Assembly (NCBI GenBank): GCA_028280565.1 | Contig: JANQLQ010000325.1 | Coordinates: forward strand, 1 to 45,021 | Reading direction: 5' to 3' | Source of the DNA: Fulvivirga sp. | GTDB lineage: Bacteria; Bacteroidota; Bacteroidia; Cytophagales; Cyclobacteriaceae | DNA length: 45,021 nt | Part shown: in pieces, positions 1,219-21,038 of the stretch | How positions within the stretch are numbered: position 1 is the stretch's first letter | Layout: each line of letters opens with the position of its first letter | Made by a program: the position numbers and the translations under genes | The notes under the pieces: generated by a model | Told to the model about the DNA's origin: nothing | Database searches by the model: none | Seen by the model: only the letters and a program-made list of their open reading frames with translations

Positions 1219-4200
1219 ATGAACAAATCTTTACTATGCTATTTGGCGTTACTTCTGCCCATGATCCTTGTGGTGAATGATGCCATGGCACAAAAAACGG
1301 TGGAGGGTAAGGTCACTTCTTCAGACGACGGCTCTCCCCTTCCCGGGGTGAATGTGCTCATCAAAAACACAACTCGTGGTACATCAACGGATTTTGATGG
1401 GAACTATCGTATCGAGCTTTTAGAAGGAGAAGAGAACCTTGTCTTTTCTTTTGTAGGCTATTCCACCCAAGAAGTGGAAGTAGGCAATCGAAGCTTGATA
1501 GATGTAACATTAATGATAGACATCAACGAGCTGCAGGAAATAGTGGTGGTAGGCTACGGTACCCAAGAGGTGAGAGAGCTCACTTCGGCCATATCCACGG
1601 TTGACCCCGAAGAAATAGTGAAAACGCCCACCGGCAATGCCATGCAGGCATTACAGGGACGAGTGCCTGGTCTTCAAATTGTAAATAATGGAGCGCCCGG
1701 CGCGGCCCCGGAAGTGCGTGTCAGGGGTTTTGGAGGATTTACCGATAATGACCTTAACACAAATAACGAGGCACGCCCACTTTTTGTGGTGGATGGGATG
1801 TTTGTAGACAACATCGATTTCCTTAACACCGCGGACATTGCCAGTATTTCCGTATTGAAAGATGCCTCCGCCTCCGCTATCTATGGTGTACGCGCCGCTA
1901 ATGGGGTTATCCTCATAGAAACAAAGTCCGGTGATTTTGAGCAAGCAACACAGATCACCTATGACGGCTATTACGGGGTACAGGTAGCGCAAGATGTCCT
2001 GCAAATGGCCAATACAGAACAATTTGCCAACTACATTAGGCAAACCGGGGAGACCAGTGAACTGGAGCTCATTGACAATGCCATTGGCAGGTTTGGCCGG
2101 AGCCGCGTCAACCCTAACCTACCGGTCACAAATACAGATTGGTACAACGAGATCATCCGGGATGCAGCGCCCATCCAAAGCCATTCGTTGACCATTACCG
2201 GGGGCACAAAACAGGCCAGGTATTCTGTAGGCGCCAGCTACTTTGAGCAAGATGGGCTCATGGATCATATGCGTAACAGCTATGAACGGTTAAACTTCAG
2301 GGCTAAAGTGGATGCGATCGCTACGGACTGGCTTACCGTAGGGGGTAACGTAACATTGAGCAATGCCACGCAATTCCTTGCAGACGATGCCGCATGGTTC
2401 CAGGCGTATTTTGCGGTACCTACGCTCCCGGTATTTGATGAGTTGAACACCGCGGCCGACCCTATTCGACATGGCAATGCACAGACGATCGGGTATAGGA
2501 GTAGGCAAAATCCTTTTTTCGTCATCGAGAATAACGACGACCGGAATAACATAGGAAAGATCATCGGTAATTTTTATGCAGATATAGAGTTAGTGCCCAA
2601 CAAACTCTCCTTTAAGACCTCTTACAATTACTTTTACCAAAACATTGTAACCCGGAATGTTAACTTTGATTTCAGCGATGGTGTACTTGCAACCCGAAAT
2701 GAGCTGACCCGGATAAATAACCGGGATTATAACCAGATCTCGGATAACATCCTTACGTACCGGGAGCTCTTTGGAGATCATAGCCTGGACGTTACGGCAG
2801 GGTATTCTTTCCGTAGCGAGGTAATGGAAGGCGTACAAGCGCGTGGCGTGAACATCCGCACCATTGACCGGGATGATGAGTCTACATGGTACATTCCTGA
2901 CGGGTCGGAGATCAACGTAGACGAAACGTTTGACACAGGGGCTAGGGAGTTTGGATCCTCCTACTTCGGTAGGGTTTCCTACAGTTATAAGAACAGGTAT
3001 CTTTTATCCGGGTCCTATCGAAGGGATGGAACGAATAAATTCCAGGAAAAGTGGGGAGACTTCTTTACCATAAGTGGGGGATGGGTAGTAACGGACGAAG
3101 CGTTTTTCGATGTGCCCGGCATAGATTTCCTTAAGGTTAGAGCAGGCTGGGGACAAATGGGGAACGACGATGTAGCTCCCGCCATAGGGCAAACCACTTT
3201 TGAGCAAATCAGCGTACCCATAAACGACCAGTTGGTAACAGGTGTACAGCCTGATAACGTCTTTGACATCATCGACCGGTGGGAGACCGTGGAAGAGACC
3301 AACATAGGCCTTACAGCCCGATTCTTAAATAGCCGGCTTTCACTGGAAGCAGACGTTTTCAGGAGGGATACGGAAGATGCCGTTCTGAATGTGGAACAAC
3401 GCGGAACAGGAGAAGAGCCCAGGAGAAACGCCGGGGCTATCAGGAACCAAGGGGTAGAGATCTTACTAAGCTGGTCAGACCAGGTTAATTCGGACCTGTC
3501 ATACAACATTTCAGCAAACCTGGCCACATTGGATAACGAGGTCCTTAGCGTGGGCGATCAACCCTTCTTGCTCAGGGGGTCGGATGCTTTTCGCCAACGT
3601 TCGGAAGTTGGATCTGCGGTAAACGAGTTTTATGGGTACGAGATCGTGGGTGTTTTCCAGACAGAGAACGAGATCACAAACTCCGGGTACACGGAAGCAT
3701 TCATTACCGACAATGATATCATACCGGGAGACTTTTTCTTCCGTGATCAGAATAGCGACGGGGTAATTGACGCAAATGACCGTGTATTCCTTGGGTCGTT
3801 CCTTCCCTCGTACACTTTTGGTGTTAATCTTGGGGTGACCTATAAACAATTTTCGTTCTCTGCTTACTTACAGGGGCAGGGAGGCAATACGATCATGAAC
3901 CGCAAAAGAGGGGAGATCATTTTTACCCAGGACACGAACATTGATGCGGACCTTGCCAATAACTTTTGGACAGAGGCCGGGTCCACCAATGAATATCCTT
4001 CCGCTGCAGGCTACAGGAAATCTTACAACAATAGCATACTCAACGAATTTTTGCTTGAAGATGGAGATTATTTCAGGGTCCAAAATGTAAGGCTATCCTA
4101 TCTCTTTGACAACAAAGAGGTGCTAGGATTGAAGCTTCCCCGGACCACCGTATCAATTACCGCGGAACGGCCTCTCACTATATTCGATTACAACGGGTTT

Positions 4201-4284
4201 AACCCTGAAGTGGTGAATGGCGTGGACCGGCAAACCTACCCGGTGCCGGCGGTTTATACCTTTGGACTTAACGTACAACTTTAA
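1219..4284 (+). CDS. SusC-type TonB-dependent outer-membrane glycan transporter
   Basis: A 1021-residue SusC/RagA-family protein, predicted to import oligosaccharides across the outer membrane with TonB energy and the SusD lid encoded just downstream. Residues 1-24 are a signal peptide ending in AMA before QKTVEG. A carboxypeptidase-regulatory-like beta domain follows (about 27-102; FDGNYRIE, FSFVGYSTQ). Next comes the VVGYGTQ segment (110-116) typical of SusC, the plug (about 117-240, with GNAMQALQGRVPG and LKDASASAIYGVRAANGV), and a long beta-barrel ending in TFGLNVQL. There is no N-terminal STN domain, so an ECF sigma/anti-sigma circuit is not expected. Length is normal for the family. The ATG at 1219 is chosen for the signal peptide. 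It is the first gene of the PUL. The substrate, beta-1,2-gluco-oligosaccharide, is inferred from the downstream GH144 and GH3 enzymes only. Confidence 0.95.
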   Translation: MNKSLLCYLALLLPMILVVNDAMAQKTVEGKVTSSDDGSPLPGVNVLIKNTTRGTSTDFDGNYRIELLEGEENLVFSFVGYSTQEVEVGNRSLIDVTLMIDINELQEIVVVGYGTQEVRELTSAISTVDPEEIVKTPTGNAMQALQGRVPGLQIVNNGAPGAAPEVRVRGFGGFTDNDLNTNNEARPLFVVDGMFVDNIDFLNTADIASISVLKDASASAIYGVRAANGVILIETKSGDFEQATQITYDGYYGVQVAQDVLQMANTEQFANYIRQTGETSELELIDNAIGRFGRSRVNPNLPVTNTDWYNEIIRDAAPIQSHSLTITGGTKQARYSVGASYFEQDGLMDHMRNSYERLNFRAKVDAIATDWLTVGGNVTLSNATQFLADDAAWFQAYFAVPTLPVFDELNTAADPIRHGNAQTIGYRSRQNPFFVIENNDDRNNIGKIIGNFYADIELVPNKLSFKTSYNYFYQNIVTRNVNFDFSDGVLATRNELTRINNRDYNQISDNILTYRELFGDHSLDVTAGYSFRSEVMEGVQARGVNIRTIDRDDESTWYIPDGSEINVDETFDTGAREFGSSYFGRVSYSYKNRYLLSGSYRRDGTNKFQEKWGDFFTISGGWVVTDEAFFDVPGIDFLKVRAGWGQMGNDDVAPAIGQTTFEQISVPINDQLVTGVQPDNVFDIIDRWETVEETNIGLTARFLNSRLSLEADVFRRDTEDAVLNVEQRGTGEEPRRNAGAIRNQGVEILLSWSDQVNSDLSYNISANLATLDNEVLSVGDQPFLLRGSDAFRQRSEVGSAVNEFYGYEIVGVFQTENEITNSGYTEAFITDNDIIPGDFFFRDQNSDGVIDANDRVFLGSFLPSYTFGVNLGVTYKQFSFSAYLQGQGGNTIMNRKRGEIIFTQDTNIDADLANNFWTEAGSTNEYPSAAGYRKSYNNSILNEFLLEDGDYFRVQNVRLSYLFDNKEVLGLKLPRTTVSITAERPLTIFDYNGFNPEVVNGVDRQTYPVPAVYTFGLNVQL

Positions 4285-4306
4285 AAAAACATTTAATTCA
4301 ATACTT

Positions 4307-5872
4307 ATGAAAGCTAAGAAGTTTTTGAAACATACGTTGATCATTGGATTGGTGTTAACATCTTTCGCTTCATGTGATGATAAACTGGACGAACCTTTAG
4401 AAAATTTTCCCTTAGGAAATGAAATAAGTGCTGAAGGCCAATTGGAGATCTTGGTGAGCAGTTATGCAGATCTATATAGACTGGGCTGGGAGGTCCATCC
4501 CACCATTGCCATAAGAGGGGATGATGTGAACAAGGGAGGTGGGGCAGATCAACCCGAAATGGGCTTTTTGGACGATTATAATTATGACCCCTCTTGGTGG
4601 TTTTTTAATGCCACATGGAATGAGTTTTACTCCGATATTATAACGACGCATTACCTGAACATTGAAGAGATTGAGAATATTAACCTGGTCATAGAGGATC
4701 AAACGTTGGGTAACCAGTACATCGCAGAGATAAAGGTGATGATCGGGTTTGATTTGTTGCAACTGGTAAGGCTTTGGGGTGACATTTTGATCCCTAATTC
4801 CTCTAGCCCTGTCGATTTCGAGAACTTACCGGTCACCGAACGTGCGGAGGTTTTGCAATACATTTCCGACCTTATGGACGAGGCTCTACCCGGTCTTTCT
4901 AATATGCGGCCCAACCAGCGGACCGACATTCCCGGTGGTGTAACAAGATATACTGCGCTGGCAGTGAAAGCTATGGCTAACTTGGATTTGGAAAACTATA
5001 CCGAGGTGGCCAACGCCACTTCGGAGATCATCCAAAGTGGAGTGTTTTCCTTAGAAAGTGATTACTACAACCTATTCAAAATGCCCGGAGAGCTAAATGA
5101 TGAGACTCTTTTGGAGTTCCAGTATTCTGACCTTGGCAGCCAAAGCACCGCTATAGATGATTTTAATCATTTATACAATTTTTATGGCCCCATAGGTGTT
5201 GGGTGGTTTCCTGCCGTAGAAGGTGTGCAAGCCGGGTGGGGGTTTTGGGAACCCACTTTCAAGTATATAGAGTTTATGTTGGATAGGGGGGATTTTCTTA
5301 GGTTGGAAACTTCCGTACTGTTCACCCCGAATGGTGTGGAGGCGTTAGAAGACCTAGGGTATACTGACTTACCCAATTTTACTACGGTAAGTTCTACTCC
5401 TTCAGGAGATGCTGCCGTGTTTACAAGAGATGGAGATGGCTTTGGTAATCACAACCGGGCGCTTTTTCATAGTGGCAAGCACGTATTGCCCACCAACCAG
5501 ATAAGCGACGAGGTGACCCGTTTTAATGCTGGTAAAAACTTTATTGTGATCCGGTATGCTGAAGTGCTTTTAATGCATGCTGAAGCGCTGGTGAGTGGAG
5601 CGAGCTCTACCTCTATTTCAGCATTGGAAGCAGTGAACCTGGTGCGGGAAAGAGCAAATATGGACCCGCTTGCCAACGTAACACTCGATGATGTCTTAAA
5701 TGAAAAATATGCAGAGTTTGCCATGGAGTGGGGCATTCGTTTTGCGGACGTGGTCCGGCACGGTAGGACCGGCGAATTGAACGAAGGTGGAAAGGTATAC
5801 GATCCATCGAATGACCGTTTCTTGCCCTATCCTACAGAACAAGTAGATCTTTTACCCCAGTTAAATCGATAA
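4307..5872 (+). CDS. SusD/RagB-family glycan-binding lipoprotein
   Basis: A 521-residue SusD-like outer-membrane lipoprotein, starting 22 bases after the SusC stop. The frame is open further upstream (to 4217), but the ATG at 4307 gives a proper lipoprotein signal, MKAKKF followed by a hydrophobic core and FASC, with lipidated Cys23. The following DDKLDE is acidic, which in Bacteroidota favours export to the cell surface. SusD features are visible: an N-terminal TPR-like helical part (YIAEIKVMIGFDLLQLVRLWGDI), the C-terminal NFIVIRYAEVLLMHAEAL helix and the closing FLPYPTEQVD. It should form the lid of the SusC transporter and bind glycan chains. The substrate is inferred from the neighbouring enzymes. 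Confidence 0.95.
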   Translation: MKAKKFLKHTLIIGLVLTSFASCDDKLDEPLENFPLGNEISAEGQLEILVSSYADLYRLGWEVHPTIAIRGDDVNKGGGADQPEMGFLDDYNYDPSWWFFNATWNEFYSDIITTHYLNIEEIENINLVIEDQTLGNQYIAEIKVMIGFDLLQLVRLWGDILIPNSSSPVDFENLPVTERAEVLQYISDLMDEALPGLSNMRPNQRTDIPGGVTRYTALAVKAMANLDLENYTEVANATSEIIQSGVFSLESDYYNLFKMPGELNDETLLEFQYSDLGSQSTAIDDFNHLYNFYGPIGVGWFPAVEGVQAGWGFWEPTFKYIEFMLDRGDFLRLETSVLFTPNGVEALEDLGYTDLPNFTTVSSTPSGDAAVFTRDGDGFGNHNRALFHSGKHVLPTNQISDEVTRFNAGKNFIVIRYAEVLLMHAEALVSGASSTSISALEAVNLVRERANMDPLANVTLDDVLNEKYAEFAMEWGIRFADVVRHGRTGELNEGGKVYDPSNDRFLPYPTEQVDLLPQLNR

Positions 5873-5876
5873 TAAA

Positions 5877-7016
5877 ATGAGGATATCCAAATATTTAGCC
5901 GTGCTGGTCATTATGACATTAGCTTGTAACGACGGGTACATAGATGACATAAACGCAGTGGAACCGGGCCCCGACCAAGATCCTCCTACTATTTCCATCA
6001 CATCCCTAACGGACACAGTAGCTATGCCTTTTACACAGGTGGAATCAGACCTGGAGATTACTTTCAGTGTAAGCGACGATATTGAATTAGGTAATGTGAC
6101 TGTAAGCTTTAATGGTACAAATGTAGGTTCCTATGACGCATTTGTAGATTACAGGAATCTAAGAGAAACCATACTCATTGAGTCTGTTGCGGTTGGGAAC
6201 TACTCGGTGGAGATCACCGCAACTGACCTTACCGGAAAACAGGTTACAGAGACTGTTGATTTTCTCTTAACGAATCAGTACTTCCCATTGGAAGGTGAAA
6301 TATTTTATATGCCTTTTGAAGGAGAAGAATTCGAGGACATCATAAGTGAAACTTTTGCATCTCCAAGTGGAGACCCTGGCTTTGTGGATGGTGTATTTGG
6401 CGAAGCTGTGGAATTTAATGCGGAAAACCGTTCTTACCTTATATTTCCTGCGAATGAGGAAATTGCAGGTCTAGAAAGCTTTACATTGTCTTTTTGGACA
6501 TTTGCTGATTTCATCGACGCTGACGAAAATGGACAGATTGACGGTATCTTGGGCTTAGTCAATTTGTCCAACAGCAATCTCTTCTGGGGAAACATTGATG
6601 TTTTCGTTGAAAACAACAGTAACCCCGTGGACGGGGCAGACATGAGGCTGCACGTGACTAATGATGATTCAGAAACCTGGATTGCCAATGTGAATGACCA
6701 GCCGAATATTTTTAATAGATGGAGCCATCATGTGTTATCATATGATAATGAGGCAAAGTTGTTTAGATACTATATCAACGGAGAGGTCATGACGACCATA
6801 GCGGCAAACTGGACCGACAACTTGGCATTTCAAGATGCAGAGAACCTTATAATAGGTTGTGTTCAATTCCAAACTGATCCTAGCTCCACCTCGGCCACAG
6901 GCTCACAGCCCTGGGCAAGTTACTTGACAGGTGAGATCGATGAAATCAAAATATTTGATCGGGTCATTTCTGCTAACGAGGTCTTGGCTTTATTTAACGC
7001 CAATAATCCAAATTAG
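5877..7016 (+). CDS. LamG-domain surface glycan-binding lipoprotein (SGBP-like)
   Basis: A 379-residue lipoprotein starting 4 bases after SusD. The signal peptide ends in LAC with lipidated Cys17, followed by NDGYIDD, an acidic start suited to surface display. Residues about 38-130 form an Ig/cadherin-like beta domain (PPTISITSL, ITFSVSDDIELGNVTVSF, ATDLTGKQVTE). Residues about 135-378 form a LamG-like concanavalin-type jelly roll (YMPFEGE, SFTLSFWTF, WSHHVLSYD, GEIDEIKIFDRVISANEVLALFN). No catalytic residues are recognised. The place after susCD is where surface glycan-binding proteins usually lie, so it probably captures the polysaccharide at the surface. Binding specificity cannot be read from the sequence. 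Confidence 0.8.
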   Translation: MRISKYLAVLVIMTLACNDGYIDDINAVEPGPDQDPPTISITSLTDTVAMPFTQVESDLEITFSVSDDIELGNVTVSFNGTNVGSYDAFVDYRNLRETILIESVAVGNYSVEITATDLTGKQVTETVDFLLTNQYFPLEGEIFYMPFEGEEFEDIISETFASPSGDPGFVDGVFGEAVEFNAENRSYLIFPANEEIAGLESFTLSFWTFADFIDADENGQIDGILGLVNLSNSNLFWGNIDVFVENNSNPVDGADMRLHVTNDDSETWIANVNDQPNIFNRWSHHVLSYDNEAKLFRYYINGEVMTTIAANWTDNLAFQDAENLIIGCVQFQTDPSSTSATGSQPWASYLTGEIDEIKIFDRVISANEVLALFNANNPN

Positions 7017-7103: not shown

Positions 7104-9062
7104 GTGAGAAAATCTCTTTACATATTATACTTAGCTTTCCTTCTTATTGCCTGTGGAGAAGATGATGGAGAGGTTAGATCACGGGGGTTTGTAATTACTT
7201 CCGTTTCCATTGGCGTATTGGATTTGTCCGAGAATCAACTCTTAGAGAATGTCCCGATCGATCAAGACATTTCAATCAGCTTCTCCACAGAAGTGCGTTT
7301 GGAAGACCTGCAAGCGGCAATTACATTAAGAAGGGGTACAGAGGCGCTAGGCTTTACCCTGGCGCAAAGCCAGGGGCTTGGTTTTGTGATCACTCCCTCG
7401 GAAACGTTGCGAGCAAATACATCGCATCATTTAGACATTTCAGCAGACCTGGTTTCTCCAACAGGCGCTTCTTTTCCAGGGGCTTCTTTTTCATTTAAAA
7501 CGCAAGCGGTAGGCCTACAACTTTTATCCGTCACTTTTGGAGGAAAAGAAGCCTTAGATCAAGGGCGGGTGACCGATGTGCCAAGATCATTGGACCTTAA
7601 CTTGACATTTTCGGCCACAGTGGACATGGAGAGCTTATCCAGTAGCATCACCATTGGTCGAGGGGTACCCCTTGTACTTACGCAACTAGATCCGGCCAAC
7701 GAAGTGTCGGTTTCCGTGGATCCAAGCTTACCGCCTGTCTCGCGGTTCGTCTTGTCAATTTCTGACAACCTCGTGGGAGCCAACGGTGAGCGTTTCGCTG
7801 GCTACGCCCAAGAGTTCTACACAGAAATAGACCCTACCTTCAAATTCCCGGAAGTGACCGATGAAGAACTACTCAACCTAGTGCAGGAGCAAACTTTCAA
7901 ATACTTCTGGGACTTTGCACATCCCACCAGCGGACTGGCCCGGGAGCGGAATACTTCCGGTGACTTAGTCACTATTGGTGGGTCCGGTTTCGGGGTCATG
8001 GCCATCCTCGTTGGGATAGAACGTGGGTTCATTACCCGGCAAGAAGGTGTGGACCGGCTGGAAACCATCGTTAATTTCTTAGAAACCGCCGACCGCTTTC
8101 ATGGCGCATGGCCACACTGGATGAATGGTATCACCGGGGAGACCATCCCCTTCGATCCGGAAGATGATGGGGCCGACCTAGTAGAAACAGCCTTTATGAT
8201 CCAAGGGCTACTGGCCGCTCGGCAATACTTGGAGGCTACGGATGCACAAGAGCTGGCCATAAAAAATAAGATCACTGACCTATGGGAAGCGGTAGAATGG
8301 AGCTGGTTTACCCAAAACGGGCAAGATGTGCTGTATTGGCATTGGTCACCCAACGTCGGTTGGGAAAAGAACCTGCAGATCAGCGGGTGGAATGAGTCGC
8401 TCATGGTTTACATACTGGCGGCGGCTTCCCCTACCTACCCTATCGATGTGGAAGTGTACCATAACGGCTGGGCCCGGGCGGGTGGAATGAGCAGCGGAGA
8501 GGAGTTTTACGAGATTCCCCTGCCACTAGGCCCACGGCTTGGAGGTCCGTTGTTCTTCAGCCATTATTCATTCTTAGGGCTAGACCCTCGCCAGCTCGAA
8601 GACCAGTATGCTAACTACTGGACACAAAACATAAACCATACCCGGATCAACCGCGCCTACTGTATTGATAACCCCTTGGACCATGTGGGCTATAGCTCGG
8701 ATTGCTGGGGACTTACGGCCAGTGATAGTCCCGGCGGCTATTCAGCCCACTCCCCCGCGAATGACTTGGGAGTGATCACTCCTACGGCGGCCATCAGCTC
8801 TTTTCCCTACACCCCGGTAGAATCTATGGAGGCTACCCGGCATTTTTATTATTTGCTGGGAGACCGACTGTGGGGAGAATATGGATTTTATGATGCGTTC
8901 AACCTTACAGAAAATTGGACGGCGGATTCGTACCTGGCCATAGACCAGGGCCCTATTATTATCATGATCGAAAATCATCGTACGGGGTTGTTATGGGAGC
9001 TGTTTATGGATAATAATGAAATTGTCACCGGGTTAGAAAAGCTCGGGTTTACCTCTTATTGA
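7104..9062 (+). CDS. GH144-type endo-beta-1,2-glucanase, lipoprotein with two N-terminal Ig-like domains
   Basis: A 652-residue lipoprotein starting with GTG, chosen because it gives a signal peptide with lipobox LLIAC (Cys17). The acidic GEDDGE that follows suggests surface display. Two related beta domains resemble the SbsA-type Ig-like fold (about 28-133 and 137-240; ISFSTEVRLEDLQAAITLRRG and LTFSATVDMESLSSSITIGRG are clearly repeats). Residues about 253-650 are the glycoamylase-like (alpha/alpha)6 domain of GH144. It has TFKYFWD, GGSGFGVMA, the acidic EDDGADLVET motif (Asp354, Asp358, Glu361), VLYWHWSPN and GWNES (Glu431). From memory of the characterised Chitinophaga enzyme, these acidic positions match the candidate catalytic ones; this needs an alignment. 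Many databases call this family glucoamylase, which is misleading. Probable role: first cut of beta-1,2-glucan at the cell surface. Confidence 0.85.
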   Translation: MRKSLYILYLAFLLIACGEDDGEVRSRGFVITSVSIGVLDLSENQLLENVPIDQDISISFSTEVRLEDLQAAITLRRGTEALGFTLAQSQGLGFVITPSETLRANTSHHLDISADLVSPTGASFPGASFSFKTQAVGLQLLSVTFGGKEALDQGRVTDVPRSLDLNLTFSATVDMESLSSSITIGRGVPLVLTQLDPANEVSVSVDPSLPPVSRFVLSISDNLVGANGERFAGYAQEFYTEIDPTFKFPEVTDEELLNLVQEQTFKYFWDFAHPTSGLARERNTSGDLVTIGGSGFGVMAILVGIERGFITRQEGVDRLETIVNFLETADRFHGAWPHWMNGITGETIPFDPEDDGADLVETAFMIQGLLAARQYLEATDAQELAIKNKITDLWEAVEWSWFTQNGQDVLYWHWSPNVGWEKNLQISGWNESLMVYILAAASPTYPIDVEVYHNGWARAGGMSSGEEFYEIPLPLGPRLGGPLFFSHYSFLGLDPRQLEDQYANYWTQNINHTRINRAYCIDNPLDHVGYSSDCWGLTASDSPGGYSAHSPANDLGVITPTAAISSFPYTPVESMEATRHFYYLLGDRLWGEYGFYDAFNLTENWTADSYLAIDQGPIIIMIENHRTGLLWELFMDNNEIVTGLEKLGFTSY

Positions 9063-9263: not shown

Positions 9264-10622
9264 ATGAGAAAAATAAACCTGTATATTTCTTGTTTAGCCA
9301 TCAGTGGTCTTATCGCTTCTTGCGGTCCTGCCAGCAATACAGACACTAACACTTCCGTGGGAAACGGCTCCCTGTCGGAAGATTCGCTGTTAAACCTTGT
9401 GCAATATCAAACCTTCCAATATTTCTGGGATGGCGCAGAGCCCGTCAGCGGTATGGCTAGGGAAAGGTTACATATGGATAACATTTATCCTAACCACGAC
9501 AAAGACATCGTTACCTCGGGTGGGTCCGGGTTTGGGCTAATGGCCATTATTGTGGGTATAGAGCGAGGGTTTATAACCCGTGAGCAAGGCGTGGAACGAT
9601 TGAAAAAGATCATTGGGTTCCTAGAGAATGCCGATACCTTCCATGGTGTATGGCCTCACTGGTGGGATGGTCCTACGGGGAAGGTGTACCCTTTCAGCAA
9701 GAAAGATGATGGCGGGGACTTGGTAGAGACCTCTTTTTTGGCCGCAGGACTACTCTCCGTGAGACAATACCTGGACAAAAACAGCCCCGGAGAAGCCAAA
9801 CTGGCGGCAAGGATCAACACATTATGGGAAAATATAGAGTTTGATTGGCACACCCAAGGAGGCCAGGAAGTGCTGTATTGGCATTGGTCGCCGAACTATG
9901 GTTGGGAGATGGACTTCGATGTGCGTGGATATAATGAGTGCCTTATCATGTATGTGTTGGCGGCTTCTTCACCAACCCATCCCATAGAACCTGTGGTGTA
10001 CCATGAGGGTTGGGCACGTGGAGGTATCATTGCTCAAGATACCTCGTATTACGGGCTGGAAACGGAGCTGAACCACTACGAGACAAATAACTCCCCGGTG
10101 GGACCACTATTTTGGGCGCATTATTCCTACCTCGGTCTCAACCCCAAAGGCTTAAAGGATCAATACGCCGATTATTGGAAACTGAACCGTAATCATGCCC
10201 TTATTCACTACAAACACTGCGTGGCCAACCCCCACCAGTTTGAAGGCTATGGAGGATCGTGCTGGGGGCTTACTTCGAGCTATTCCTTAAAGGGCTATGC
10301 CGGGCATAGACCGGATCGCGATCTAGGCGTCATATCTCCCACCGCGGCTCTATCGTCTTTCCCTTATACCCCTGCAGAAAGCATGGCGATGCTTAAATTC
10401 TTATACCAAGAGGCAGATAGCCTTGTGGGGGAATATGGGCCGTATGACGCTTTTAGTTTCGAGCATAACTGGTCCTTGCCCCGGTATTTGGCCATAGACC
10501 AAGGACCTATCCCTGTTATGATCGAAAATCATCGTACCGGGCTTATATGGAACCTGTTTATGTCAGCCCCGGAGATCCAACAGGGACTGGAGAAACTCGG
10601 CTTTAGTTATGATAAAGAATAA
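9264..10622 (+). CDS. GH144-type endo-beta-1,2-glucanase, single-domain lipoprotein
   Basis: A 452-residue lipoprotein (signal peptide ending IASC, Cys20), a paralogue of the preceding GH144 gene but without its Ig-like domains. The catalytic (alpha/alpha)6 domain covers about 37-450. Motifs match the paralogue almost word for word: TFQYFWDGA, TSGGSGFGLMAIIVGIERGF, KDDGGDLVETSF (Asp148, Asp152, Glu155), VLYWHWSPN, GYNEC (Glu225), YAGHRPDRDLGVISPTAALSSFPYTP, LAIDQGPIPVMIENHRTGL. The residues after the Cys (GPASNT) are not acidic, so this copy may face the periplasm and trim imported oligosaccharides. Expected reaction: endo-hydrolysis of beta-1,2-glucan to short sophoro-oligosaccharides. The two genes probably come from a duplication. 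Confidence 0.85.
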   Translation: MRKINLYISCLAISGLIASCGPASNTDTNTSVGNGSLSEDSLLNLVQYQTFQYFWDGAEPVSGMARERLHMDNIYPNHDKDIVTSGGSGFGLMAIIVGIERGFITREQGVERLKKIIGFLENADTFHGVWPHWWDGPTGKVYPFSKKDDGGDLVETSFLAAGLLSVRQYLDKNSPGEAKLAARINTLWENIEFDWHTQGGQEVLYWHWSPNYGWEMDFDVRGYNECLIMYVLAASSPTHPIEPVVYHEGWARGGIIAQDTSYYGLETELNHYETNNSPVGPLFWAHYSYLGLNPKGLKDQYADYWKLNRNHALIHYKHCVANPHQFEGYGGSCWGLTSSYSLKGYAGHRPDRDLGVISPTAALSSFPYTPAESMAMLKFLYQEADSLVGEYGPYDAFSFEHNWSLPRYLAIDQGPIPVMIENHRTGLIWNLFMSAPEIQQGLEKLGFSYDKE

Positions 10623-10671
10623 AAAAATGATATACCCCCATACGTCATGTTTCTTGGCTTTCTACAGGGAA

Positions 10672-12390: not shown

Positions 12391-12422
12391 TAAACAAAAC
12401 CCAAAAGAATCAATCTAACTCT

Positions 12423-14770: not shown

Positions 14771-15607
14771 ATGAGCACAATTTTTACTAAACCAATGAGC
14801 CTATTAGAAGTTGCCGTAATAAAACTCGCTCCCGTATGGGTGACTTGCGTATTGATAATTGGCCTTGCACACCCAGCTTTTTCGCAAGCAACCCCGGGTT
14901 TTGAAAAGGCGATGCACATGTATAAAAAAGATACACTTCCCTATCGTATCCTGTACCCGGTAAATTTCGATCGCACGAAGGATTACCCTGTAGTACTTTT
15001 TTTACACGGAGCCGGCGAACGTGGAGATGATAACGAAAAACAGCTGGTACATGGCAGTAAGCTTTTCCTGCAACCTGGCAACCGGGCACAGTACCCCGCC
15101 ATTGTAGTTTTTCCGCAATGTCCTGAAGATGACGCGTGGACCAGGAGGGCTGTTAAAAAGGTAGATGGCAAAAGGCAATTCAGTTTTAAAAAAGGAGGTA
15201 AACCTAGCCCGGCTATGGGGGTTTTGGTACACCTGGTAGATTCCTTGTACCAGCTCCCTTTTGTGGATCAAGACAGGGTCTATCTCGGTGGATTATCGAT
15301 GGGAGGTATGGGTACTTTCGAGCTTGCCTGGCGCCGGCCAGGCATGTTTGCAGCTGCATTTCCCATTTGTGGTGGTGGAAACCCCAAAAATGCCCGGCAA
15401 TATGCGGAAAAGATACCGTTTTGGATATTTCATGGCGCAAAAGACGATGTAGTTCCCCCCGAATACTCGGAGCAGATGGTAGTAGCGATCCAAGCTCATG
15501 GGGGGCAGGTCAAATTTTCACTTTACCCCGAGGCCAATCATAACAGTTGGGATAAAGCCTTTGCCGAGCCCGATCTTATGCCTTGGCTATTTTCAAAAAG
15601 TAAATAA
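14771..15607 (+). CDS. Secreted alpha/beta-hydrolase, probable carbohydrate esterase
   Basis: A 278-residue alpha/beta-hydrolase with a long signal peptide ending HPAFSQ; a start at residue 9 (ATG 14795) would shorten it. The oxyanion-hole segment FLHGAGERGDD (about 77-87), nucleophile elbow GGLSMGG (Ser176), acid Asp225/226 in HGAKDDVV and His257 in NHNSW form a complete triad. It resembles the secreted prolyl-oligopeptidase/PHB-depolymerase-like esterases (dienelactone-hydrolase clan) often seen in PULs. It lies between the two GH3 genes in the same orientation, so it probably removes an acyl group (for example acetyl or succinyl) that blocks the glucosidases. The acyl group is inferred, not shown. 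Confidence 0.75.
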   Translation: MSTIFTKPMSLLEVAVIKLAPVWVTCVLIIGLAHPAFSQATPGFEKAMHMYKKDTLPYRILYPVNFDRTKDYPVVLFLHGAGERGDDNEKQLVHGSKLFLQPGNRAQYPAIVVFPQCPEDDAWTRRAVKKVDGKRQFSFKKGGKPSPAMGVLVHLVDSLYQLPFVDQDRVYLGGLSMGGMGTFELAWRRPGMFAAAFPICGGGNPKNARQYAEKIPFWIFHGAKDDVVPPEYSEQMVVAIQAHGGQVKFSLYPEANHNSWDKAFAEPDLMPWLFSKSK

Positions 15608-15623: not shown

Positions 15624-17876
15624 ATGAGACCTACAGTATTTTATTCTTACATAGTATTTTTAATCGTATTATCAAGCTGTGCTTTTAAAACCCCCGACCC
15701 CTCGGTACAAGACAAAATGCATATCTTCTTGGATTCATTGATCAACGAGATGACGGTAGAAGAAAAGGCCGGGCAACTCACCCTGTACACCAGCGGGTGG
15801 ACGATTACCGGCCCCCAGCTCCGGGAGGATTATATTGACGAACTGAAAGCCGGCAGGGCAGGGAATTTGTTCAATGCTCATACGGTGGACTACTCCATGA
15901 AACTGCAAAAGATGGCCGTGGAGGAGACGCGATTGGGCATCCCTCTTTTGTTTGGTTTAGATGTTATACATGGTTATAAAACTACTTTTCCCATACCCCT
16001 AGCCGAGGCCAGTACTTGGGATATGGATATCATAGAAAAAACGGCTCGTCTTTCTGCTAAAGAGGCGGCTTCTGCCGGTGTGAACTGGACTTTCAATCCC
16101 ATGGTGGATATCGCACGTGACCCGCGGTGGGGGCGCATAGCGGAAGGGGCCGGTGAAGATACGTACCTGGGCAGTCTCATTGGGGCCGCCAAGGTGCGCG
16201 GCCACCAAGGCGAAGACCTGGCAGACCCTACCACTATTTTAGCATGCGTAAAGCACTTTGCCGCCTATGGGGCCGCCCAGGCAGGTCGTGATTATCATAC
16301 GGTGGATATGTCGGATCGTGTGCTCCGGGAAACCTATTTGCCTCCTTACAAAGCCGCTTTGGACGCGGGGGCTGCCACCCTTATGACTTCTTTCAATGAA
16401 TTAGACGGTGTGCCGGCATCTGGGAGTTATTACTTGATGACCGAGATACTGAGGAAAGAATGGGGTTTTGATGGCTTCGTGGTAACGGATTATACCTCCA
16501 TTAACGAGATGGTCCCGCATGGCGTAGTGGCGGATGAAAAGGAGGCTGTGGCCCTAGCCTTTAATGCCGGCGTGGAAATGGACATGCAGGGAGGTATTTA
16601 CAGTAAGTACATCCCCGAACTGATCCGGGAAGGTAAGATCAGCGAAAAAGTGCTCGACGCATACGTAAAGCGAGTACTCACCATGAAGTACAAACTCGGG
16701 CTGTTTGATGATCCTTATCGCTACTTAAATGCCCAGCGTGAACAGGAGACCTTTTTTTCACAAGAGCTGATGGACCACGCCCTCCTATCCGCCAAAGAAT
16801 CGATCGTGCTGCTTAAAAATGAGAAGGTAGGCGATTCACCTTTACTCCCCCTATCAAAATCCACGCGGTCCATTGCGCTGATCGGTCCGCTGGCCGATAA
16901 TCAGAAAGACATGCTGGGTACATGGCATGTGGCTGGTGATGAGACCAAAGTGATCACCCTCCTGCAAGGGATGAAGGAAATTGCTCCCGGGGTGACGCTT
17001 CACCACGCTCGTGGCGCCGGTTTTACGGGTGACGACCGACCAGGTTTTCGAGAAGCGATCCAAGCGGCTCGAAAATCGGATGTGGTGGTCATGGCACTGG
17101 GTGAGAATTTCGGCCAGAGTGGGGAAGCTGCCAGCCGTTCGGAGCTGGGACTGCCGGGAGCACAGCAGGCTTTGCTAGAAGAGATCCAAGCCCTAGGGAA
17201 GCCTATCGTAGTGTTGGTCATGGCCGGCCGGCCTTTGACCCTCGAGTGGATGCATGACCATGTGCCTGCGATCGTAAATACGTGGCATTTGGGGACCCAA
17301 GCGGGGAGAGCCATTGCCCAAGTACTGTTCGGGGACCATAACCCGGCAGGTAAGCTTACCATCACCTTTCCCAGGAATGTTGGTCAAATACCCATTTTTT
17401 ACAGTATGAAAAATACGGGCAGACCTTTTGATACCCAAAATAAGTATACGAGCCGGTATTTGGATGTATCCAATGAACCGCTTTACCCCTTTGGTCACGG
17501 GCTAAGCTATACTACTTTTGACTATGCTGACCTGCACCTTGCTACAAATGAGCTCTCCGAAGGGGCATCTCTACCGGTAAGCGTCACGGTTACAAATACT
17601 GGTCCGTACGAGGGTAGAGAGATCGTACAGCTGTACATCACAGATAAAGTGGGGAGTGTGACCCGGCCAGTGAAAGAACTCAAAGGGTTCAAAAAAATAA
17701 ACTTAAAACCCGGCGAAAGTGCGAAGGTAGAATTTACTATCACTACGGATGACCTGGCCTTTTATACCCGGGACATGTCTTACCAAGCAGAGCCGGGCAC
17801 TTTCAAAGTCATGGTAGGTCCTAGCTCTTCGAAAGGATTGGAAGCTGAATTTGAATTAAAAGTAAACGGTATTTAA
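15624..17876 (+). CDS. GH3 beta-glucosidase, lipoprotein (copy 2)
   Basis: A 750-residue GH3 lipoprotein (signal VLSSC, Cys19), starting 16 bases after the esterase. It is a paralogue of the GH3 gene upstream, with the same three-domain layout. The TIM barrel holds GLDVIHGYKTTFPIP, DIARDPRWGRIAEG and nucleophile Asp289 in FVVTDYTS. The alpha/beta sandwich holds likely acid/base Glu501 in QSGEAASRS. A C-terminal FN3-like domain starts near residue 640 (VTNTGPYEGREIVQLYI). The residues after the Cys (AFKTPD) are not acidic, so a periplasmic location is plausible. It differs from copy 1 in the loop near residues 55-70 (TSGWTITGPQLRED), which may change chain-length preference. Function expected: exo-hydrolysis of beta-1,2-linked glucosyl residues. 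Confidence 0.9.
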   Translation: MRPTVFYSYIVFLIVLSSCAFKTPDPSVQDKMHIFLDSLINEMTVEEKAGQLTLYTSGWTITGPQLREDYIDELKAGRAGNLFNAHTVDYSMKLQKMAVEETRLGIPLLFGLDVIHGYKTTFPIPLAEASTWDMDIIEKTARLSAKEAASAGVNWTFNPMVDIARDPRWGRIAEGAGEDTYLGSLIGAAKVRGHQGEDLADPTTILACVKHFAAYGAAQAGRDYHTVDMSDRVLRETYLPPYKAALDAGAATLMTSFNELDGVPASGSYYLMTEILRKEWGFDGFVVTDYTSINEMVPHGVVADEKEAVALAFNAGVEMDMQGGIYSKYIPELIREGKISEKVLDAYVKRVLTMKYKLGLFDDPYRYLNAQREQETFFSQELMDHALLSAKESIVLLKNEKVGDSPLLPLSKSTRSIALIGPLADNQKDMLGTWHVAGDETKVITLLQGMKEIAPGVTLHHARGAGFTGDDRPGFREAIQAARKSDVVVMALGENFGQSGEAASRSELGLPGAQQALLEEIQALGKPIVVLVMAGRPLTLEWMHDHVPAIVNTWHLGTQAGRAIAQVLFGDHNPAGKLTITFPRNVGQIPIFYSMKNTGRPFDTQNKYTSRYLDVSNEPLYPFGHGLSYTTFDYADLHLATNELSEGASLPVSVTVTNTGPYEGREIVQLYITDKVGSVTRPVKELKGFKKINLKPGESAKVEFTITTDDLAFYTRDMSYQAEPGTFKVMVGPSSSKGLEAEFELKVNGI

Positions 17877-17887
17877 GTAATGAACCC

Positions 17888-19408
17888 ATGAAAACCTTAC
17901 CTATACCAAGACTCATTATCGGGCTGATCTTCATAATGTTGTTGAATTCTTGTGACCAAAAGCCCAGCCAAGGGACGCTCCAAGACCGTAATTTGTCGTT
18001 GGAGGCGATACCCAACACGAGACCTGTTAACGTAGTTTTTATTTTAAGCGACGACCACCGGTATGATTTTATGGGCTTTACCGGTAAAGTGCCTTTCTTA
18101 AAAACCCCGAATATGGACAAAATGGCCACCGCGGGAACACACATTCAGAATGCGTTTGTAACTACTTCATTGTGTTCTCCTAGTCGTGCCTCCATTCTTA
18201 CCGGGCAGTACTCCCACCATCACCAAGTAGTAGACAACCAGTCGCTGGTGACCGACACTAGTGTTTTCTTCCCCCAATACTTACAGCGGGCGGGCTATGA
18301 GACGGGATTCTTCGGCAAATGGCATATGGGCGAGCATCATGCCGGTCCCAGGAGAGGATTTACCCACTGGGTGAGCTTCAGGGGGCAGGGAAATTACTAC
18401 AAACCTACCCTCAATATCAACGGAGAAGAGGTGGCCTATGAAGACAGTGCGTATGTTACGGACCTTTTGACTGACCAGGCCGTGGAATGGCTGGAAAAAA
18501 GAAGCAACGACCGGCCTTTCTTCTTATATCTTTCTCACAAAGGGGTGCATGCTGATTTTCAGCCCGCCTTACGTCATAAGGGAAAGTACGCCGGGGAAAA
18601 GCCCACTTACCCACCCACGATGCATCCCGGCGAAAATGAAGACTACCGGTATGAGAATGTACCCAGCTGGGTCAAAAAGCAACGGTATAGCTGGCATGGG
18701 GTAGATTACATGTACCACGGCACGATCGAATTTGACGAGTTTTACCGGCGATATAATGAAACACTCCTTTCTGTCGATGAGAGTATCGGCCGTGTCTTGG
18801 CCCAATTGGAAAGCAGCGGCAAGCTGGAAAATACGTTGGTTTTCTACATGGGAGATAACGGTTTTTCTTTTGGCGAACATGGCCTTATCGATAAACGTCA
18901 TGCTTATGAAGAATCTATCCGCGTTCCCCTGCTGGTATATGGGGCAGGCCAGTTACTCGAGAAAGATAGCGTAGATCAATTGATCCAAAACATCGATATA
19001 GCACCCACTATATTGGAATTGGCAGGCCTTAAGAAACCCTCGAATATGGATGGAGAATCTTTCCTGCCCTTGTTGAAAGGTCAAGAGCTTGATTGGCGAG
19101 ACAGGATCTATTACGAATACTTTTGGGAAAGACCCTTCCCACAAACCCCAACGGTACATGCCGTGCGTACCGAAAAATATAAGTTTACCCGGTATTACGG
19201 AATATGGGACATTAACGAACTGTATGATTTGGAAAATGACCCTTGGGAAATGAACAATTTAATTAGGAGCAAGGAACACCAGGCCGTAGCTAAGGAAATG
19301 CGGCAAGATCTTTTTAACTGGCTGATACAAACTGAAGGTATGCAGATCCCTTTAAAAACAGATGGACAGGGACCTCGTTTTGATCATGGTTACAAAGGAA
19401 CGTACTAA
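17888..19408 (+). CDS. Type I (S1-family) sulfatase lipoprotein
   Basis: A 506-residue lipoprotein (LLNSC, Cys22) of the formylglycine sulfatase family. The maturation motif is intact: Cys96 in LCSPSRASILTG, which a maturation enzyme encoded elsewhere would convert to formylglycine. Metal and active-site residues are present: Asp55-Asp56 in LSDDHRYD, Arg100, Lys144 and His146 in GKWHMG, His217 in LSHKGVH, Asp323-Asn324 in MGDNGFSFGEHG, Lys336. The overall pattern resembles the N-acetylglucosamine-6-sulfatase-like branch (S1_11 type), judged from memory. A sulfatase next to beta-1,2-glucan enzymes is unusual and suggests a sulfated substrate. Relatives in the alkaline phosphatase superfamily also hydrolyse phosphate esters, so another ester cannot be excluded. 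It starts 11 bases after the GH3 stop. Confidence 0.88.
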   Translation: MKTLPIPRLIIGLIFIMLLNSCDQKPSQGTLQDRNLSLEAIPNTRPVNVVFILSDDHRYDFMGFTGKVPFLKTPNMDKMATAGTHIQNAFVTTSLCSPSRASILTGQYSHHHQVVDNQSLVTDTSVFFPQYLQRAGYETGFFGKWHMGEHHAGPRRGFTHWVSFRGQGNYYKPTLNINGEEVAYEDSAYVTDLLTDQAVEWLEKRSNDRPFFLYLSHKGVHADFQPALRHKGKYAGEKPTYPPTMHPGENEDYRYENVPSWVKKQRYSWHGVDYMYHGTIEFDEFYRRYNETLLSVDESIGRVLAQLESSGKLENTLVFYMGDNGFSFGEHGLIDKRHAYEESIRVPLLVYGAGQLLEKDSVDQLIQNIDIAPTILELAGLKKPSNMDGESFLPLLKGQELDWRDRIYYEYFWERPFPQTPTVHAVRTEKYKFTRYYGIWDINELYDLENDPWEMNNLIRSKEHQAVAKEMRQDLFNWLIQTEGMQIPLKTDGQGPRFDHGYKGTY

Positions 19409-19429
19409 GAATGTGTTTAACTTTACGAG

Positions 19430-20296
19430 ATGGTCAGGGTTCTGAAAATATCATGCTGCATCCTCTTTTTTACATGCTTACAAGGAAGTGGGCCATTATG
19501 GTCCCAGCCGGCGAGTACGGTTAGGGTGATGACCTATAACATTAAATTCGACGATACGCGTGACCCTGGAAACGACTGGGCCCATAGGAAAAGCCGCGTG
19601 ATAGGCCTGTTAAATTTTTATGAACCTGTGGTCTTCGGGATACAAGAAGGGCTTGCTCACCAAGTAGAAGATATAAAACAAGGCCTCGATAACTTTGAGT
19701 ATACAGGCGTAGGGCGTGACGACGGGAAGAAGCAAGGGGAGTATAGCGCCATATTTTACAATACAAGCCTCTTTGATGCCAACCGTTCGGGTACTTTTTG
19801 GCTTTCGAGCACTCCTAGTAAGCCGGTAAAGGGATGGGATGCAGCCCTGCCCCGTATATGCACTTGGGTGGAACTGGAACACAAGGAAACGGGAAAGACA
19901 ATGACCGTATTCAATACACATTTTGACCACGTAGGGGTCAAAGCGCGTGAAAAAAGTGCCGAACTCATCTTGAGCAAGATAGAAGAGTTAGGTGCTGTTG
20001 GCCCTGTGGTTCTCATGGGAGATTTTAATTTCACCCCCGGTCCTGGGCCTTACAGTGTAGTCACCTCTTCGCTGCGCGATGCGCGCTTAGCCAGCCAGGC
20101 AATGCCGTATGGCCCGGAAGCCACGTTCAATGGATTCCGGTTTGATCGTGCTCCAACTGGGAGAATAGATTATGTCTTCGTCAATAAAGCCATTGAAGTG
20201 TTACGTTACGGCGTACTCACGGATTCGCAAGACCTTTCCTATCCCTCGGACCATTTTCCCGTAATGGTGGATCTCAAGATTCATGCCCGGGACTGA
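19430..20296 (+). CDS. Secreted endonuclease/exonuclease/phosphatase (EEP)-fold hydrolase
   Basis: A 288-residue protein of the DNase I-like EEP superfamily, with an N-terminal signal region (to about residue 27). The family motifs are complete: Asn37 in TYNIKF, Glu73 in GIQEG, His164 in FNTHFDH, Asp198 and Asn200 in GDFNF, Asp247 in GRIDYVF and the Asp274-His275 pair in PSDHFPV. EEP enzymes use Mg2+ to cut phosphate mono- or diesters. Secreted versions in Bacteroidota PULs are more likely to act on phosphorylated glycans or lipids than on DNA. Here it could remove phosphoglycerol or phosphoethanolamine groups, as found on bacterial periplasmic glucans; this is inference. The last 14 bases overlap the next gene, so translation is probably coupled. 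Confidence 0.8.
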   Translation: MVRVLKISCCILFFTCLQGSGPLWSQPASTVRVMTYNIKFDDTRDPGNDWAHRKSRVIGLLNFYEPVVFGIQEGLAHQVEDIKQGLDNFEYTGVGRDDGKKQGEYSAIFYNTSLFDANRSGTFWLSSTPSKPVKGWDAALPRICTWVELEHKETGKTMTVFNTHFDHVGVKAREKSAELILSKIEELGAVGPVVLMGDFNFTPGPGPYSVVTSSLRDARLASQAMPYGPEATFNGFRFDRAPTGRIDYVFVNKAIEVLRYGVLTDSQDLSYPSDHFPVMVDLKIHARD

Positions 20297-21038
20297 TGAA
20301 TTATTACTAGTGGGCGGCGGGGTCCTAGCCGGGGTGGTGAATACGATCTCGGGGAGCGGAACGCTTTTTAGCCTGGGAGTAATGGCATGGCTGAACATCC
20401 CGCTGGTGACCGCAAATATTGCTACCCGGCCGGGTGTATTTTTCCAGAACCTGGCGGGGGTATTTGTTTTGAGAAAATACCGGCAGTTTAGTAATGATGA
20501 CATTAAGCGGGCGCCTATTGTACTCGTTGGCCTTGGCGCGATGTTGGGTGCGATCTGTGCAGGCTTGATCTCGGGCTCTTTTTTTAATCTTGTGGCTTCG
20601 GTGGTCATGCTTTTTTTACTGGTGCAATACCTGCTACCTCGGGGGCTTTTGAAAATAAAAGCATTGGCCTTCCAAAAGAATAATGAGGTTATCCAGCCTG
20701 TTCTCTTTTTTGTAACAGGTTTTTACGGTGGGTTTATCCAAATTGGTATCGGCATCTTGATCCTTACTCTCCTGCTTCGTTACATGGCTCTTCCTTATGC
20801 TAAAGCCAATGCTTACAAGCTTATTATTATCCTGGTCTACACCATCCCCACCACGTTGTACTTTGCCATCACGGGTATGATCCTTTGGAAGCCTGCCTTA
20901 TTGCTGGCCCTAGGGCAGATCATAGGGGCTTACTTGGCGGCTTTATTTATCAGCGTGAGTAGCTATGCTAAGCAATGGGCAAAATGGATCACGGTAATGA
21001 TGATCTTGATCACTCTTTTGAAGATTTGGGTTTTTTAG
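20283..21038 (+). CDS. TauE/SafE-family inner-membrane anion exporter
   Basis: A 251-residue integral membrane protein with about eight hydrophobic segments. The first half has GGGVLAGVVNTISGSGTLFS and the second GGFIQIGIGILILTLLLRY, the paired glycine-rich repeats typical of the TauE/SafE (former DUF81) family. Members export sulfite, sulfoacetate or other small anions. The ATG at 20283 lies inside the end of the EEP gene, indicating tight co-expression. In this setting it could rid the cell of an anion produced during glycan desulfation or of an acyl product; the substrate is not known. It is the last gene of the PUL. Confidence 0.8.
   Translation: MPGTDELLLVGGGVLAGVVNTISGSGTLFSLGVMAWLNIPLVTANIATRPGVFFQNLAGVFVLRKYRQFSNDDIKRAPIVLVGLGAMLGAICAGLISGSFFNLVASVVMLFLLVQYLLPRGLLKIKALAFQKNNEVIQPVLFFVTGFYGGFIQIGIGILILTLLLRYMALPYAKANAYKLIIILVYTIPTTLYFAITGMILWKPALLLALGQIIGAYLAALFISVSSYAKQWAKWITVMMILITLLKIWVF

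Follow-up and report, generated by a model that had tools for sequence, protein, structure and literature searches.

The window, by which we mean the whole 45,021-nucleotide stretch of DNA that was analysed, begins with the first base of its contig and contains 12 co-directional plus-strand genes spanning positions 1219-21038, whose named families all match above the Pfam cut-offs (Table 1). The intergenic gaps are, in order, -68, 4, 87, 201, -14, -4, 41, 16, 11, 21 and -14 bp; the first, an overlap of susC and susD, vanishes when the second in-frame ATG of susD, at 4307 beside the lipobox, is taken as its start. Pfam matches, strands and gaps thus confirm that the gene set named in the initial annotation forms one co-directional, tightly spaced run, and with a susC-susD pair accompanied by co-directional CAZymes the run is organized as a PUL. 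The next long open reading frame after it (21208-22458) encodes a ketoacyl synthase on the opposite strand. No regulator is visible upstream, since the contig begins there and the longest frame in positions 1-1218 of the ORF listing, taken without family comparison, is 104 aa; an upstream regulator-type protein is present in three relatives examined (7TMR-DISM in L041 and L042, Y_Y_Y/LuxR in L067). The window gave no hits in Rfam or tRNA scans. The lipobox pattern found no match in the LamG-domain protein, whose reading as a lipoprotein was made by eye from the N-terminus given in Table 1.

Table 1. Genes of the run, with their predicted products and the evidence for each assignment
Feature	Positions	Strand	Evidence
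susC, TonB-dependent outer-membrane transporter	1219..4284	+	Plug, CarbopepD_reg_2
susD, surface glycan-binding lipoprotein	4307..5872 (ORF opens 4217; 4307 likelier start)	+	SusD_RagB; lipobox
LamG-domain lipoprotein, likely third surface glycan-binding protein	5877..7016	+	Laminin_G_3 (PF13385); N-terminus MTLACNDGYIDD
First GH144 with N-terminal Big_5, lipoprotein, likely surface endo-β-1,2-glucanase (predicted)	7104..9062	+	PF10091; PDB 4gl3, 5gzh/5gzk; lipobox
Second GH144, lipoprotein, likely periplasmic	9264..10622	+	PF10091; PDB 5gzk/5gzh; lipobox
GH43-like β-propeller with F5/8C (CBM32-like) and fn3; likely removes glycosyl side group (predicted)	10609..12390	+	Pfam; aligned triad; fold
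GH3 β-glucosidase, BglX-like (predicted)	12387..14729	+	NCBIfam BglX 877 bits; PDB 3u48, 5tf0, 9urf, 5xxl
α/β-hydrolase, likely secreted deacylase (predicted)	14771..15607	+	Pfam; PDB 3doh esterase; GLSMGG motif
Second GH3 β-glucosidase (predicted)	15624..17876	+	NCBIfam BglX 824 bits; PDB matches
S1 formylglycine sulfatase, S1_11-like, predicted 6-O-sulfatase, lipoprotein-like N-terminus	17888..19408	+	LCSPSR motif; folds BT3177, BT4656, A. muciniphila sulfatase, BuS1_11, Bacple_01701
EEP-fold phosphatase, likely secreted (predicted)	19430..20296	+	PF03372; PDB 3mpr, 4c1r
TauE/SafE-family permease, likely exports sulfate or other sulfur oxyanion (predicted)	20283..21038	+	PF01925; clade rare, mostly in these loci

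The enzymes predicted to act on the glucan backbone make a strong case, from their families, for a β-1,2-glucanase locus. The two GH144 copies score 265 and 256 bits against PF10091 (Glycoamylase/GH144), and over the catalytic domain their similarity to CpSGL (5gzh/5gzk) reaches E-values of about 1e-154 for the first and 1e-176 for the second. The acidic residues of the GH144 active site, presumably those numbered D139, E142 and E211, are retained, to judge by a D-L-V-E-T stretch that each copy shares with the solved chain 5gzk aligned to them; E142 is named in PMC11842490. The first copy is likely to be located at the cell surface, because it is a lipoprotein with acidic residues after its cysteine. 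Both GH3 proteins fall in the group that contains PDB 5xxl, presumably BT3567, a β-1,2-glucosidase. With the GH144 pair closest to solved endo-β-1,2-glucanases and the GH3 pair in the 5xxl group, the assignment to β-1,2-glucan made in the initial annotation is supported. The β-1,2-glucan locus of Bacteroides thetaiotaomicron that includes BT3567 likewise combines GH144 with a GH3 of this group; to our knowledge, it has no sulfatase, EEP phosphatase or TauE.

The comparison set comprised 80 named GH144 loci together with 78 family-genome stretches. The core gene order recurs in most of both, which argues that the locus is not a product of chance; of the 80 named runs, 73 have susC and 72 have susD. 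Runs with GH144 also repeatedly include the esterase, the GH43-like protein and TauE. The GH43-like protein scores 99.8 bits in Pfam and has the five-bladed propeller fold, and its D/D/E triad, assigned from motif positions (D74, D164 and E233), is invariant in 30 of 30 aligned sequences; the 50 solved matches listed by a fold search are 10-22% identical to it, and the comparison with them gave no GH43 subfamily.

The sulfatase scores 218 bits against the S1 family in Pfam and retains the formylglycine (fGly) motif (LCSPSR, agreeing with C/S-x-P/A-x-R). Seven of the best nine of its 50 listed structural matches are S1_11 enzymes or stated 6-O-sulfatases, the other two being an Akkermansia sulfatase of unstated specificity. 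It resembles the S1_11 6-O-sulfatases BT3177, BT4656 and BuS1_11 in fold and, in the alignment with BT3177, in the position of the fGly motif and in the D-K-R motif; however, the window type is only 28-31% identical to these enzymes, has GDNG where BT3177 has SDQG, and the substrates of the three are mucin, heparin/heparan or porphyran-type. A passage of a review (PMC10154612) describes an S1_11 triad (His, Asp/Arg) that recognizes O3/O4. Substrates of S1_11 enzymes are GlcNAc-6-sulfate and L-galactose-6-sulfate, which counts against glucose-6-sulfate as the target. Two groups of sulfatases occur in GH144 loci, 25 sequences of the window type and 40 others, with a median identity of 34% between the groups. 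The fGly cysteine is present in every sequence of both groups, and the D-K-R motif, kept in the window sulfatase, is absent from two of the 40. A histidine aligned between the window sulfatase and BT3177 is kept in 22 of the 25 window-type sequences and is often Gln in the other group; because of the many second-group sequences with Gln, we do not rest the 6-O assignment on this residue. From these comparisons, the window sulfatase is probably specific for the 6-O position, and the identities and motifs suggest that sulfatases were recruited into GH144 loci twice. The genome itself has six FGE-domain matches, one of them weak and partial; elsewhere FGE is the sulfatase's immediate neighbour in two named loci (L056, L076) and shares its run in a third (L043).

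Relatives of the sulfatase and of the EEP phosphatase lie near GH144 genes far more often than crude chance would place them. Twelve of the 15 closest sulfatase relatives (at least 61% identity) are within 20 kb of a GH144 gene against about 0.09 expected, and 13 of 126 EEP relatives are near one against about 0.7 expected, under a crude null that assumes uniform placement in 5.5-Mb genomes and counts as independent related genomes that are not. In the next sulfatase tier (44-60% identity) the count is one of 13. These figures bear on the possibility that this is a locus for plain β-1,2-glucan in which the sulfatase, phosphatase, TauE and GH43 are unrelated scavenging genes that have drifted in and act on other glycans. 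The genome is indeed rich in sulfatases, with 71 sulfatase-domain matches, so that a sulfatase in one locus is not rare in itself, and runs without sulfatase, phosphatase and TauE make up 32 of the 80 named and 51 of the 78 family-genome runs; 70 of the 80 and 66 of the 78 are truncated by the limits of the stretch analysed. Three of the 15 closest sulfatases also lie away from GH144: in G076 a sulfatase-EEP pair is about 65 kb off, and in G004 and G086 there is no GH144 on the stretch read. Yet genomes with few first-look sulfatase candidates (three in G013, five in G035, six in G057) still place one in their GH144 locus, such loci contain sulfatases of two groups and phosphatases of two folds, and the genes of the window are tightly spaced. 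Together with the 12 neighbouring cases among the closest relatives, this makes drift quite improbable, and we conclude that the sulfatase and the EEP phosphatase are part of the β-1,2-glucan system.

TauE points the same way. Relatives of at least 44% identity occur in four of 148 family genomes (ten of 148 at E ≤ 1e-30), and three of the four, in the window, G057 and G090, lie in GH144 runs; the fourth (G119) is on an 11.3-kb contig without other relatives of the queried proteins. Among the named relatives, Fulvivirga sp. M361 (L045) has the sulfatase-EEP-TauE module. Given this rarity and placement of TauE, we rejected the view that it is a random neighbour. Given also the recurrence of the esterase and the GH43-like protein, the proposal in the initial annotation that the non-glucanase genes strip decorations from the glucan probably holds.

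What those decorations are is a separate question, on which the phosphatase bears directly. Its nearest solved relatives are 3mpr (putative; E 2.4e-57) and 4c1r (named a mannosyl-6-phosphatase; E 5.5e-57), the latter presumably BT3990 of the yeast-mannan system, and it is in this sense a BT3990-like EEP sugar phosphatase. BT3990 is likewise an EEP phosphatase in a glycan locus, but its backbone is mannan, whereas the window EEP accompanies GH144 and a sulfatase. The EEP gene comes immediately after a sulfatase gene in 13 of the 14 named runs that have an EEP, and in none of the eight such runs in the family-genome set, six of which have no sulfatase at all; a metallophosphoesterase of a different fold occurs in two of the 80 named and four of the 78 family-genome runs. 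A single inherited EEP was rejected: a tree of 28 PUL rows (counting every EEP whose stretch carries GH144) and 38 others, drawn from 113 EEP places not near GH144, needs eight label changes, at least four forced by well-supported branches, in a set where locus G045 is counted twice as an identical pair and rows L212-L251 are tblastn pieces rather than whole genes.

Both the adjacency of EEP to the sulfatase and the recurrence of a phosphatase, mostly without a sulfatase in the family genomes, would also suit a locus that feeds on the osmoregulated or cyclic periplasmic glucans of proteobacteria, whose β-1,2-linked chains are substituted with phosphoglycerol, phosphoethanolamine and succinyl groups. 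Here the esterase would remove succinyl or acetyl groups, phosphoglycerol or phosphoethanolamine would be taken off by EEP, and upstream of EEP the fGly enzyme would act as a phosphodiesterase of the alkaline-phosphatase superfamily; enzymes named phosphonate monoester hydrolase (2w8s) are indeed distantly related to it. However, 2w8s scores 147 bits against the window sulfatase and BT3177 287 bits, all 50 listed structural matches are titled sulfatases, and TauE, present in seven of the 80 named runs, accompanies the window-type sulfatase in six of them. Pfam searches (E up to 0.001) matched none of the 12 genes to a glycerophosphodiesterase family, though EEP could still act on diesters. A review of cyclising β-1,2-glucan enzymes contains no word beginning 'sulf'. 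We therefore regard such a diet, the first choice of the initial annotation, as unlikely; its fallback, a sulfated relative, fits the retained fGly motif and the structural matches better. The co-location of sulfatase and EEP, the 6-O-type folds, the FGE in the runs of three named relatives and the rarity of TauE together favour a sulfated glucan over a plain proteobacterial periplasmic one. We know of no natural sulfated β-1,2-glucan.

The idea that marine GH144 loci serve a sulfated polymer was put forward in 2019 (Lapebie et al., PMC6499787), in a passage that describes marine PULs with GH144 and sulfatase together, as in the window, and, as we do, infers an unknown sulfated marine β-1,2-glucan. 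That passage does not name a phosphatase, TauE, esterase, GH43, sulfatase subfamily or sulfate position, and our analysis adds to the proposal phosphatases that recur, a module of sulfatase, EEP and TauE, and a predicted 6-O position. A cluster of Maribacter dokdonensis (PMC8072126) resembles the window in having susCD, two GH144, one GH3 and sulfatase genes; the passage on it, which mentions no phosphatase or exporter, describes it as indicating glucosidase/endoglucanase activity, beside an alginate locus. Literature searches gave no match for TauE with sulfatase and PUL, a sole match for GH144 with phosphatase and PUL (PMC10405439) that led nowhere, and no mention of the code 9S03 in papers since 2025; for sulfated periplasmic glucans, the 15 papers listed out of 428 matches deal with algae or are general.

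From these observations, we consider it reasonably likely that the locus is a PUL for β-1,2-glucan bearing sulfate, probably at glucose O6, and perhaps also phosphate and acyl groups, in a bacterium that is probably marine. SusD and the LamG protein would bind the glucan at the cell surface, where the first GH144 would cleave it, and SusC would take up the oligosaccharides. In the periplasm, the esterase, GH43-like protein, sulfatase and EEP phosphatase would strip the decorations, the second GH144 would shorten the chain and the two GH3 enzymes would liberate glucose, while TauE may move the freed sulfur oxyanion. We stress that we infer the localisation, the order of steps, the 6-O position and the phosphate and acyl groups. 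More speculatively, it is possible that a widespread marine β-1,2-glucan carries sulfate and phosphate on one chain, with acyl and perhaps furanose groups, and that Bacteroidota put together the kit to strip it down, an fGly 6-O-sulfatase beside a phosphatase and in some lineages a dedicated TauE, on more than one occasion, drawing on distantly related sulfatases and on phosphatases with two different folds.

The gene set of the window is shared by some relatives, a hint that there is a decorated polymer which has so far escaped isolation. If this is true, such a polymer is being made, probably in the sea, and the gene set supplies enzymes with which it could be found and sequenced: GH144 would release the polymer, and the sulfatase and EEP phosphatase would read its charges. 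The locus would also offer defined targets for glucose-acting fGly 6-O-sulfatases and, in loci of this kind, a candidate exporter for the sulfur oxyanion that is set free.

The 12 genes of the window locus form a co-directional run with intergenic gaps of -68 to +201 bp, and family searches agree with the initial annotation on the family of every gene. Each of the two GH144 proteins aligns with the solved structures of its family (4gl3, 5gzh, 5gzk; E values down to 1e-176) and keeps the D-L-V-E acidic stretch. The two GH3 proteins are BglX-like, with structure matches in a group that includes 5xxl, which we take to be BT3567, a β-1,2-glucosidase. In the first GH144 protein, acidic residues come after a lipobox, an arrangement that serves as a surface signal. 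That the locus is a β-1,2-glucan PUL we regard as very likely. Among named records, the second GH144 protein has relatives at 72-80% identity in Roseivirga, Fulvivirga, Agaribacillus, Flammeovirgaceae and Cyclobacteriaceae, some of the records being MAGs. The host is probably a member of the Cyclobacteriaceae in the GTDB sense and, going by these names, probably marine.

The window spans bases 1-45021 of contig C201; the genome totals 9.05 Mb in 337 contigs. No regulator is seen for the locus, because the longest ORF in the 1.2 kb at the contig start (1-1218) is 104 aa; in three relatives tested, the upstream regulator is 7TMR-DISM (L041, L042) or Y_Y_Y/LuxR (L067). A repeat search of the same 1.2 kb found one short inverted pair and no direct repeats. 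Those of the remaining window ORFs that were scanned gave matches to unrelated families or none, and two adjacent ORFs lack any Pfam match (see table).

Coordinates of features in the window and in stretches around relatives of its genes (L handles)
Stretch	Coordinates	Strand	Feature
Window	8-22 / 29-43		Short inverted pair
Window	1219-21038	+	SusC, SusD, LamG lipoprotein, two GH144, GH43-like with F5/8C and fn3, GH3, alpha/beta esterase, GH3, S1 sulfatase, EEP phosphatase, TauE
Window	39037-40459	-	Two adjacent ORFs, 239 and 237 aa
L046	14411-16987		GH2-type protein
L171	9788-12334		GH2-type protein
L078	15853-17481		Flavobacterial second-group sulfatase
L136	7099-8046		BD-FAE esterase
L047	13786-14772		BD-FAE esterase
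L085	17846-18745		BD-FAE esterase
L105	12794-13726		BD-FAE esterase

Gene order was mapped by blastp against the 12 window proteins in 80 named GH144 loci and in 78 GH144-bearing stretches, each at most 20 kb long, from genomes of the family, some genomes being present in both sets; in L197 and L198, two additional stretches, a sulfatase was the starting point. Co-directional GH144 runs contain a sulfatase in 45/80 named and 17/78 family-genome cases, GH43 in 35/80 and 22/78, a window-type esterase in 34/80 and 17/78, EEP in 14/80 and 8/78, TauE in 7/80 and 2/78, and a metallophosphoesterase in 2/80 and 4/78, with FGE in 3/80 named runs; these counts are lower bounds, since 70/80 and 66/78 runs extend to the stretch end. 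Sulfatase, phosphatase and TauE are all absent from 32/80 and 51/78 runs. Six runs (L046, L058, L121, L169, L171, L183) encode a GH2-type protein, confirmed by Pfam in L046 and L171, the two tested, and lying between GH3 and sulfatase in at least L046, L058, L169 and L171; it may be one more enzyme for side chains. Esterases of a second type, BD-FAE, are present in 6/80 and 9/78 runs, a hint that the glucan carries acyl groups. The GH43-like protein has D74, D164 and E233 kept in all aligned sequences (window plus 29 of 34 named-locus relatives), and its model (pLDDT 82.9) predicts a GH43 propeller; we assign it no target because the solved matches listed are 10-22% identical to it.

The window sulfatase by itself proves little, because its genome is sulfatase-rich (71 sulfatase-domain matches in 9.05 Mb). 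More telling are G013, G035 and G057, family genomes with few first-look sulfatase candidates (3, 5 and 6), yet one beside GH144. In 148 family genomes, window counted, GH144 is found within 20 kb of 12 of the 15 nearest sulfatase relatives (≥61% identity; ~0.09 expected) and of 13 of 126 EEPs (~0.7 expected), of which 90 are in genomes where a GH144 is listed. This null is a rough one that places genes uniformly in 5.5-Mb genomes and counts related genomes separately, but the gap exceeds tenfold. The next relatives, at 44-60%, give 1/13. The three exceptions at ≥61% are in G076 (~65 kb off), G004 and G086, the last two without GH144 on the stretches read (20 kb, and 11 kb to a contig end). 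Those two stretches, L198 and L252, each hold another sulfatase within a few kb, only distantly related to the window's (24-26%).

Sulfatases of GH144 loci fall into two groups, window-type (n=25) and second (n=40), some genomes entering from both sets, with median identities of 65% and 51% inside the groups and 34% between them. The fGly Cys is kept in 65/65 and the D-K-R motif in 63/65. The L078 sulfatase matches S1_11 structures strongly (7p24, E 3e-157; 5g2v, E 1e-154) and 9s03, a solved 'putative sulfatase', more strongly still (E 1e-245); judged by sequence, 9s03 may itself belong to this system, and a search of the open-licence literature since 2025 found no paper mentioning the code 9S03. 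The nine top-ranked PDB matches of the window sulfatase's AlphaFold model (alignment: window and 28 of the 44 relatives from named loci; pLDDT 80.5) are BT3177, BT4656, a sulfatase from Akkermansia muciniphila with no stated specificity (two entries), the exo-L-galactose-6-sulfatase BuS1_11 (three chains) and the porphyran 6-O-sulfatase Bacple_01701 (two entries). β-1,2-Linked glucose units have O3, O4 and O6 free, which would suit an S1_11-like enzyme. S1_11 enzymes recognise O3 and O4 of 6-sulfated GlcNAc or L-galactose (PMC10154612).

FGE, which activates sulfatases of this kind, is encoded right next to the sulfatase in two loci, Fulvivirga imtechensis L056 (by blastp) and L076, a Balneolaceae MAG; in Roseivirga thermotolerans (L043) both belong to one run. 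All six FGE-domain matches in the window's genome lie on contigs other than the window's. Six of the seven named runs with TauE have a window-type sulfatase, and TauE at ≥44% identity occurs in only 4/148 family genomes, three of them in GH144 runs. We consider it likely that the substrate of the window locus carries sulfate.

The window EEP has its closest matches in 3mpr and in 4c1r, which is titled mannosyl-6-phosphatase. In the tree, the EEPs from GH144 stretches do not form a single clade, and at least four label changes are forced. EEP directly follows the sulfatase in 13/14 EEP-bearing named runs, across both sulfatase groups, and in 0/8 family-genome runs, six of which lack a sulfatase; in G076, a sulfatase-EEP pair sits ~65 kb from GH144. 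The metallophosphoesterase, calcineurin-like, is found in six other runs, two of them covered by the Pfam check. These genes are moderate evidence for phosphate on the polymer, which would be partly independent of sulfate; for the substrate of the window locus itself, phosphate is slightly favoured.

A sulfated polymer behind marine GH144 PULs was proposed in 2019 (PMC6499787), and the core idea is thus already published. The accessible texts describe a Maribacter cluster with GH3, two GH144, susCD and sulfatase genes (PMC8072126), enrichment of GH144 PUL genes in deep water and, in general terms, reports of phosphatases in PULs (both PMC10405439). In the open-licence main texts, as far as accessible, we found no phosphatase, TauE or sulfate position for GH144 loci. 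The initial annotation had read the locus as a PUL for decorated β-1,2-glucan, either the periplasmic glucans of other bacteria or a sulfated relative. The backbone it named stands; of the two foods, the periplasmic glucans fit less well. Periplasmic glucans of proteobacteria do carry succinate, phosphoglycerol and phosphoethanolamine (PMC11842490), and the accessible text of that source contains no word beginning 'sulf'; that they are the main food is unlikely.

Because the Akkermansia matches carry no stated specificity and the family-genome runs lack sulfatase-EEP adjacency, we hold the two following readings slightly less firmly. With fair confidence, the window locus is a PUL for β-1,2-glucan bearing sulfate, probably at O6, and probably also phosphate and acyl groups. 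More tentatively, there may exist an uncharacterised marine β-1,2-glucan with sulfate and phosphate on the same chain, for which Bacteroidota would have assembled a matching enzyme kit more than once.
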